Notes under the pieces: generated by a model
Database searches by the model: none
The model's input: the letters and a program-made list of their open reading frames with translations, nothing else
What the model was told of the DNA's origin: nothing
Position numbers and translations under genes: made by a program
Assembly: GCA_017521425.1 (NCBI GenBank)
Contig: JAFXCQ010000016.1
Span: forward strand, 62,001 to 126,000
DNA: 64,000 nucleotides
Source of the DNA: Clostridia bacterium
Lineage (GTDB): Bacteria > Bacillota > Clostridia > Oscillospirales > Acutalibacteraceae
Direction: 5' to 3'
Shown here: positions 16,787 to 51,064 of the stretch, piece by piece
Position numbering within the stretch: position 1 is the stretch's first letter
Layout of the letters: each line of letters starts with the position of its first letter

Positions 16787-16875
16787 CAGGGACCAGAAAT
16801 CAGAAATTAGAAATCAGAGTTGTAATTTTATGTTTAGTATATTCCTGATTTCTTCTTTCTGATCCCTGATCCCTA
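16787..16875. repeat. Facing heptamer arrays (inverted repeat), CAGRRAN family
   Basis: The left arm is CAGGGAC, CAGAAAT, CAGAAAT, TAGAAAT and a partial CAG (16787-16817). The right arm, read on the minus strand, is TAGGGAT, CAGGGAT, CAGAAAG, AAGAAAT, CAGGAAT (16875-16841). About 23 bp separate the arms, which can pair into an imperfect hairpin. This element fills most of the 306-bp gap between secA and the sigma gene; apart from the two promoters nothing else was seen there. Confidence 0.8.
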
Positions 16876-23935: not shown

Positions 23936-23940
23936 TATAG

Positions 23941-23969
23941 TTGCAAGTTGCAAGTATGCAAGTTGTAAG
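23941..23969. repeat. Heptamer array, TTGCAAG family
   Basis: Units TTGCAAG (23941-23947), TTGCAAG (23948-23954), TATGCAAG (23955-23962) and TTGTAAG (23963-23969). It starts 5 bp after the FN3 gene stop. Confidence 0.75.
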
Positions 23970-23980
23970 TGGATGGTAAA

Positions 23981-24026
23981 AAACTACACTCTTTCATTTG
24001 AAATTGAGAGAGTGTAGTTTCTTTTT
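23981..24026 (+). terminator. Terminator of the giant FN3 gene
   Basis: The stem AAACTACACTCT/AGAGTGTAGTTT (23981-24020) is followed by CTTTTTCT. It lies between two heptamer arrays. Confidence 0.85.
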
Positions 24027-24058
24027 CTAATTTCTGTTTCCTGCCCCCCTGCTTGCTG
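24023..24058. repeat. Heptamer array, CAGRRAN family (minus orientation)
   Basis: Read on the minus strand: CAGCAAG, CAGGGGGG (8 bp), CAGGAAA, CAGAAAT, TAGAAAA. It overlaps the T-rich tail of the terminator. Confidence 0.7.
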
Positions 24059-50176: not shown

Positions 50177-51064
50177 ATGAGTTTTATTGATACAAGTAGC
50201 TTTGGTCTTATGACTTCTCTAAATCATATAAGAAAAAATGCAAAACTTGAAAGCAAGTGGGAGCAAAGAAAACAACAAGGCTTTTCTACCGATGGTCTGA
50301 CTGAGCGCCAGAAAGACAATGTGAATTTTATTAACGCCTATAAAGAACAACAGGAGTTGCATCCTGAAGATAAAGAAATGCAGAGAATAACAAATAAAAT
50401 TTACGCTGGTAGTAAATTAACAGAACAAGAAATGCAGTATCTGCAAAAGAAAAACCCTGTTCTGTATCAGAAAATGCGTGCAGTGGAAGCAGAAGCCAAA
50501 CAGTACGAAGAAGATTTAAAGCGTTGTAAAACGAAAGATGAAGCACAACGTATTAAAATGAATAAAATAAATGCTTCTGTAGCAAGTATTCGTTCTGTGG
50601 AAAGTAACCCGAATATTTCAGATGCAGATAAATTAGCATTTGCTCAGGCAGAGCAGGTAAAAATGCGTGAAATTGAAAAGATTACTGTAAAATTTATTGA
50701 AAGTGGTGCTTACGCTGCTCTTCCTACAGATGCAGAAAAATTCCAGACAGAAAAAGAACTGGAAGAAGCAAAGCTCAGGGATCAGGGAACAGAAATCAGG
50801 GATCAGGAAACAGAGGAGATTCAGGAAGCAGAAAGTAGGAAGCAGGAGACAGGGGAAGTAAAGACTGCGACTTCAGAAGAAATTGCTGAAGCGGTTGAAA
50901 AACTTGTTGGCAAAAATACCAAAACTGAATTTAAAATTGGCGACAACAAGCGTAACGAAACTGAAATTGAACTTTCAGACGAGTTTAGAAAAATTAAAAA
51001 CTCAAAGGCGAAGAAAGCATACATTAAAGCAGTATTAGATTATAATATTAATTCTGAAAAATAA
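50177..51064 (+). CDS. Orphan helical protein with translated heptamer repeats
   Basis: The start is ATG 50177, with AGGTG 7 bp upstream. The product is 295 aa. I do not recognise the family. It is charged, helical and coiled-coil rich (VEAEAKQYEEDLKRCKTKDEAQRI), with no signal peptide or membrane helix. Residues about 200-227 (KLRDQGTEIRDQETEEIQEAE, in part, then SRKQETGE) are encoded by a run of CAGRRAN heptamers at 50776-50856, so part of the protein is repeat-derived. The C-terminal 65 residues (TSEEIAEAVEKLVGKN and SKAKKAYIKAVLDYNI) are again helical. The N-terminal SFGLMTSLNHIRKNAKLE resembles no domain I know. It follows the kinase gene but has a separate terminator on each side. Confidence 0.7.
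   Translation: MSFIDTSSFGLMTSLNHIRKNAKLESKWEQRKQQGFSTDGLTERQKDNVNFINAYKEQQELHPEDKEMQRITNKIYAGSKLTEQEMQYLQKKNPVLYQKMRAVEAEAKQYEEDLKRCKTKDEAQRIKMNKINASVASIRSVESNPNISDADKLAFAQAEQVKMREIEKITVKFIESGAYAALPTDAEKFQTEKELEEAKLRDQGTEIRDQETEEIQEAESRKQETGEVKTATSEEIAEAVEKLVGKNTKTEFKIGDNKRNETEIELSDEFRKIKNSKAKKAYIKAVLDYNINSEK
50776..50856 (+). repeat. Heptamer array inside a coding region, CAGRRAN family
   Basis: CAGGGAT, CAGGGAA, CAGAAAT, CAGGGAT, CAGGAAA, an 11-bp unit CAGAGGAGATT, CAGGAAG, CAGAAAG, TAGGAAG, CAGGAGA and CAGGGGA run end to end. The array contributes no in-frame stop. Confidence 0.85.

Follow-up and report, generated by a model that had tools for sequence, protein, structure and literature searches.

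Genes for S23 proteins were first known from 23S rRNA, where an intervening sequence (IVS) can encode such a protein, for example in Coxiella burnetii and Leptospira, and the stems of these intervening sequences are cut by RNase III. Bacterial heptamer repeats (STRR) have been known since 1990. In the IVS of Coxiella, GACAGAT heptamers precede the S23 ORF in a strain-variable number, which is treated there as a local detail, and the same paper reports that the structure of S23 proteins has been solved (2006) while their function is not known (PMC4990558). Heptamers are over-represented among the simple repeats of many bacteria for no accepted reason; those of Xanthomonas and Nostoc have been catalogued, with 70–75 facing pairs in Xanthomonas, and Rehm et al. 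describe heptamer repeats as generally not associated with mobile elements (PMC4692102). For the TAACTGA heptamers of Beggiatoaceae, MacGregor sees no evident transfer mechanism (PMC4679880), and a paper on DGRs notes that PF05635 resembles Avd (PMC10053308). A literature search, outside which lay preprints and most subscription papers, turned up only the Coxiella IVS report on S23 together with heptamers, and no paper that joins S23 to dispersed heptamers. The S23 relative XCC0516 comes from Xanthomonas campestris, the heptamers of which were catalogued in PMC4692102.

The window, i.e. the whole stretch of 64,000 nt analysed here, belongs to genome G000 (2.35 Mb in 33 contigs, 97% complete), the close relatives of which are Oscillospiraceae/Clostridia MAGs such as SIG595, SIG596 and SIG561. 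The plus-strand ORF at 50177–51064 encodes P0001, a protein of 295 aa (RDQGTEIRDQETEEIQEAESRKQETG) that gave no family match above the curated cut-off in a profile search and that, among 99 genomes searched, has relatives only in G005, G006, G010, G013 and G015. This orphan gene is known only in six genomes of the genus; it contains, at 50776–50856, an array of ten 7-mers and one 11-mer that has neither a gap nor a stop codon, as the first-pass annotation had stated. The first block (50776–50821, plus strand) consists of CAGGGAT, CAGGGAA, CAGAAAT, CAGGGAT and CAGGAAA followed by the irregular 11-mer CAGAGGAGATT, and the second (50822–50856, plus strand) of CAGGAAG, CAGAAAG, TAGGAAG, CAGGAGA and CAGGGGA. 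One unit begins with TAG and the sixth base is G in two others; CAGRRAN-type is a fair label for the set. Neither a facing partner nor a core accompanies this array, and the segment that it encodes is a charged and probably disordered linker. The period of 7 passes through every codon phase, and of 2000 shuffles of the codon order only 3 score as high as the real linker. Codon repetition can be ruled out because the period is 7; simple slippage was also discarded, given that the repeat is not restricted to the gene, has a period that is not a multiple of 3 and shares its units with intergenic arrays. A run of nine random CAGRRAN units has no stop codon in any of the three sense frames, whereas each antisense frame is free of stops in only 42–56% of cases; it is therefore to be expected that an array in sense orientation can be read through.

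An alignment of the six P0001 orthologues finds the full array in G000, G005 and G013, with a first block that is identical or nearly so, whereas the first half of the linker is mostly non-array in G006, G010 and G015 (EELQGADTEKTQESEDI type). The 11-mer has a counterpart in G006 and G010 (CAGAAGATATT in the latter), and in the 3' half of the linker all six share the register of their CAG units, which are degenerate in G015. Orthologues lacking the segment, which the first-pass annotation had proposed to look for, were not among them: even G015 has the linker at the same place, although its genome contains no perfect CAGRRAN triplet. Linker lengths are 87, 93 or 105 nt, and the frame is always kept despite the 7-base unit. 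A fresh insertion into P0001 is rejected because the 3' register is common to all six orthologues. The linker is also not conserved as protein with synonymous drift, the pattern that had been set against a mobile repeat; in most pairs its amino-acid divergence is about 5–15 times as high as elsewhere in the gene, and lineages exchange it. With the linker set aside, G000 is nearest to G006 (pS 0.14), yet the linkers of these two differ strongly (pS 0.61, pN 0.24), and between G000 and G005 the linker shows pN 0 and pS 0.25 against pS 0.54 for the rest of the gene. The distribution of the full array over three orthologues thus conflicts with the relationships given by the remainder of the gene, and since linker and rest-of-gene divergences disagree, the linker appears to have been exchanged between lineages as a block. 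By these comparisons this is an old captured array under frame constraint and not a new insertion.

In a search for three consecutive CAGRRAN units, with the reversed pattern as control, G000 gave 31 matches (control, 1) and G005 gave 219 (control, 7), so the genome-wide occurrence that the earlier annotation had asked about is borne out. Across 22 genomes of the genus, triplets number 219 in G005, 73 in G006, 31 in G000, 17 in G013 and 7 in G010, and are absent from the other 17. Period 7 is the only clearly enriched array period among 4–12, and array unit counts peak at 4, which is the floor of the detector used. The arrays of G000 are often facing pairs, the right-hand array being the reverse complement of the left-hand units, and frequently enclose a palindromic core such as CATCCTATCATTTTTAGTTG..CAACTTTAAATGATAGGATG; many element cores resemble bidirectional terminators. 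A dispersed and variable STRR-like heptamer family in this lineage is supported by these counts, and two further heptamers found at S23 genes have an equally patchy, lineage-limited distribution. Of the earlier proposal, a mobile or expanding repeat that can invade genes, the part on a dispersed and variable family stands (five genomes with the family, 17 with none), while a recent invasion of P0001 does not, given the linker register shared by its six orthologues. Like STRR, the GGGAATC repeats of Xanthomonas and the TAACTGA repeats of Beggiatoaceae, the arrays are degenerate 7-base tandems, dispersed and mostly intergenic, with a minority in genes, and often form facing pairs; unlike in the reports on those repeats, which name no protein, the arrays here are tied to S23 genes. 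At L008, L010 and the xpt site of G010 (L146), a second small palindromic repeat (CTACGGGCGACCAAAGGTCTGCCCCTACG type) adjoins the heptamer arrays.

Array pairs with short hairpin cores and no S23 gene are dispersed through the genome, and two of them lie in the window, at the two intergenic places (16787–16875 and 24027–24043) where the same units had already been seen. The first, upstream of a sigma-factor-like gene, comprises a left array of five units (16787–16821, plus strand), a short core (16822–16854) and a right array of three units (16855–16875, minus strand), the inversion of which is evident from sequence and site comparison; the entire element folds into a single hairpin (z = -6.2). 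The second element (23938–24046) has a left array of the heptamer TTGCAAG (23938–23971, plus strand), which flanks S23 genes in G007, G008 and G016, a core that reads as palindromic and terminator-like (ACTACACTCTTTCATTT..AAATTGAGAGAGTGTAGTTTCTTTTT, 23980–24026), and a right array of the CAGRRAN family (24027–24043, CAGGAAACAGAAATTAG on the minus strand). With TTGCAAG on the left and CAGRRAN on the right it is a hybrid. It is placed between two plus-strand genes.

What such arrays are had been overlooked: they form the two ends, facing each other, of S23 (PF05635) elements and of derivatives without the gene. In G000 itself, a facing CAGRRAN pair encloses the gene for P0002 (L066; C14:209823–210299), an S23/IVP four-helix protein (Pfam PF05635, E 1.5e-39; TIGR02436). 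Arrays within 300 bp of the ORF were scored at 84 S23 loci from the genus and from plasmids, and period-7 arrays were present upstream at 48, downstream at 45, on both sides at 39 and on either side at 54, compared with 0–9 loci for periods 4–6 and 8–12. A second set of 29 loci, one per genome out of 199 genomes of the phylum, has period-7 arrays at 21, on both sides at 16 of them, and other periods at 0–2. In a matched control, arrays on both sides were found at only 9 of 1073 ordinary genes of the genus (0.84%) versus 46–55% of S23 genes. The upstream and downstream arrays have the same heptamer, inverted, at 36 of the 39 loci with both, and at 26 of these 39 the best match of an array is its own partner. 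The heptamers include TGCAAAA, TGCAGAR, TGCTGAR, TGCGAAR, CGTAATK, GGCAAGT, CAGTCRC, CAGTGGT, GGGAACA, GGGTGTA and AAAAGCT, among others. About a third of the 84 loci have no clear array; age, decay or truncation at the end of a contig may account for some of these. S23 genes bounded by inverted heptamer arrays are thus shown for this genus, for other families of Bacillota, and for cyanobacterial and Azospirillum plasmids.

L066 and most of the S23 loci resemble the 23S rRNA IVS in that an S23 ORF lies between inverted, stem-forming ends, whereas the elements of the window are without the gene. One locus, L087 on Azospirillum lipoferum plasmid AZO_p2, lies inside a 23S rRNA gene, and the GACRGAN heptamers at its two ends resemble the GACAGAT of Coxiella; the other S23 loci are placed between protein genes. 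In contrast to the 23S rRNA IVS, the elements described here sit in operons, their heptamer differs with the S23 lineage, and dispersed gene-less relatives exist. Plasmid S23 genes are found in operons or clusters, for instance between ribonucleotide reductase genes or after a TraM gene. On three cyanobacterial plasmids (L079, L080 and L083), S23 elements lie in CRISPR-Cas operons (cas6/S23/cas4, cas10/S23/cmr3), and at L080 heptamer arrays also occur between further neighbouring genes. Where the neighbours, called from ORFs and not from curated genes, are co-directional, S23 is in sense at 64 loci and antisense at 5 (p = 4e-14). Hairpin folding of elements gives z values of -6.2 to -7.4, Rfam returned no known RNA family in five element loci, and facing arrays are predicted to form long RNA stems once transcribed. 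Arrays and S23 genes do not always coincide within a genome: G006 has many CAGRRAN arrays, yet no S23 gene with clear CAGRRAN ends is among its fetched loci, and G003 has 12 arrays, mostly TTAGCTG, in 225 kb with no S23 detected in an assembly that is 81% complete. Some of the TTAGCTG arrays of G003 (L189–L194) are clustered within 1 kb, and this type is also the heptamer of S23 in Calothrix (L082) and in G187 (L161).

The heptamer follows the protein. When S23 pairs at the same site are left out, 78% of pairs with 70–80% identity share a heptamer, against 3% of those below 40%, and heptamer sharing correlates with S23 identity (r = 0.38), a value reached in none of 1000 permutations. YAG-type heptamers are concentrated in one S23 clade that spans Bacillota and cyanobacteria (Fisher p = 3e-4), with similar YAG heptamers at related S23 genes of Nostoc plasmids and Bacillota (L084, L085, L164 and L166), while another clade is mostly without them. 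S23 lineages are thereby shown to differ in their heptamer. Such covariation is what recognition of the heptamer by S23 would predict; it can arise by joint inheritance without binding, which alone would give part of it.

Orthologous sites differ in ways that indicate movement, and the comparison of array lengths between genomes, another of the checks suggested earlier, shows arrays appearing, disappearing and changing by whole units. At the site of the 16787–16875 element, G010 and G015 have no array, G000 has 5+3 units and G013 has 8+3, exactly 21 bp more than G000, while G005 and G006 have long arrays around longer and different cores. The site between the gene for a solute-binding protein and xpt is empty in six genomes and filled in G000, G005 and G006 by S23 elements with three different heptamers; the TGCTGAR element found there in G010 still has the sub-terminal sequence of its G006 counterpart, but no S23. 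Insertion is shown by these comparisons taken together: sites are filled in some genomes and empty in others, elements replace one another at one site, and one deletion derivative is without S23. The elements have no fixed terminal inverted repeats; each end is an array of 3 to about 29 units, and these arrays are not the same in orthologous copies. At the two sites compared, no target-site duplication was evident by eye, and no transposition intermediate or strand-level product was seen; the empty sites of G015 show CAGAAAA and TTTCAGAAG at these two places. The C-terminus of the xpt protein of G000 is encoded by an array (SFREQGSEIRN). At L012 (1947–2543, xpt) and at about 1463 of L001, heptamer arrays run across stop codons, so that the proteins gain new residues at the C-terminus.

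An unlikely account of the array in P0001 is that codons of a disordered linker rich in Gln, Glu, Lys and Thr (CAG GAA ACA GAA) expanded locally, unrelated to the intergenic arrays. It would fit G015, which has no perfect CAGRRAN triplets but already possesses a Q/E/T/K-rich linker of nearly the same length, with a codon-shuffle score only modestly above chance (81/2000). However, the units match a genome-wide family (31 against 1), a period of 7 is not a multiple of 3, and the full array is limited to genomes that hold the dispersed family; the first-block identity of G000 and G005 (linker pN 0, pS 0.25) is moreover far above that of the rest (pS 0.54), which points to transfer of the segment. 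We hold it to be still less probable that the arrays are selected regulatory or structural DNA at gene ends (terminators, G-quadruplexes or RNA stabilisers), which S23 adjoins by accident or by inserting there. Many cores are terminator-like and the elements fold strongly, and in Xanthomonas the GGGAATC arrays are no more than 50 bp from ORFs and for the most part transcribed (PMC4692102), but every S23 gene is flanked on either side by a heptamer of its own, and the heptamer can be predicted from S23 relatedness even between phyla, a match that unrelated host sites would not give. Most of the heptamers (TGCAAAA, TGCTGAR) are not G-rich, and sites are empty in close relatives, as at xpt, where S23 with its own heptamer is newly inserted at a place without an array in sister genomes.

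The elements might instead be REPIN- or MITE-like and be moved by a Y1 (RAYT/IS200-type) transposase or a reverse transcriptase encoded elsewhere in the genome, with S23 an accessory as Avd is in DGRs, an idea to which we likewise attach only a small probability. As with REPIN/RAYT systems and MITEs, there are many short non-autonomous copies with inverted repeats, resembling REPINs in being dispersed and palindromic, and few copies with a gene; here, however, the ends are degenerate heptamer arrays of variable length and the gene encodes a four-helix bundle and not a transposase. S23 is a four-helix protein distantly related in sequence to Avd (NF033474, E 8e-10; bAvd, E 4e-9), and G000 and G005 have one Y1 match each. 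Unlike in REPIN/RAYT systems, however, the presence of a Y1 transposase does not track the arrays over the 22 congeners: neither G006 nor G013 has a match, whereas G009, G011, G012 and G020, which lack CAGRRAN arrays, do. RVT_1 was not found in the array-bearing G000 (97% complete), G005 and G006, and G002, G017 and G021, which do have a reverse transcriptase, are without CAGRRAN; no pair of template and variable repeats was seen either, a further difference from DGRs. Given this want of correlation, both enzymes were rejected as the mover, though absence from incomplete assemblies is weak evidence.

The best explanation, and one we regard as probable, is that the array in P0001 is a copy of the CAGRRAN family, the home of which is a small S23 mobile element with element-specific facing arrays. 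The family to which its units belong forms the facing ends of S23 elements, and it is from the unit family that we infer an element origin. With somewhat less assurance, though we lean towards it, S23/IVP genes may be the autonomous members of a widespread class of mobile elements that have no recognisable transposase, recombinase or reverse transcriptase and whose ends are matched to their own S23; STRR, GGGAATC and similar repeats would then be non-autonomous copies or debris, and the 23S rRNA IVS a special case. The S23 protein likely recognises its own heptamer array, perhaps with one unit per subunit, so that gene and ends would travel and diverge together. Solved S23 relatives are 2GSC (XCC0516) and 2RLD, and XCC0516 is a ring of five (PMC4990558); a ring of S23 would bind several heptamers of one strand. 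Gene-less copies were likely moved in trans. Less surely, insertion may start at a short heptamer-like target, seeding being suggested by two sites, and the array might be copied in when strands anneal and templates are switched in the course of replication or repair, a route proposed because the family is tracked by neither a reverse transcriptase nor a Y1 transposase. A long RNA stem from facing arrays would make sense-strand insertion in operons tolerable, as in the 23S rRNA IVS. In P0001, an array may have been seeded in, or have replaced, a Gln/Glu-rich linker in the ancestor of the six orthologues, would have been retained because CAGRRAN on the sense strand has no stop codon in any frame, and may afterwards have been exchanged between lineages.

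The link between S23 and heptamers joins two unexplained features of bacterial genomes, and makes both the heptamer excess and the function of S23 testable by one question, namely whether S23 binds its own array. If the link is true, the intervening sequences of 23S rRNA would be one landing site of a general element, and the strain-variable repeats used in STRR typing would have a source. It would also show how repeat DNA free of stop codons can turn into new stretches of protein, such as the linker of P0001 and the C-terminus of the xpt protein.
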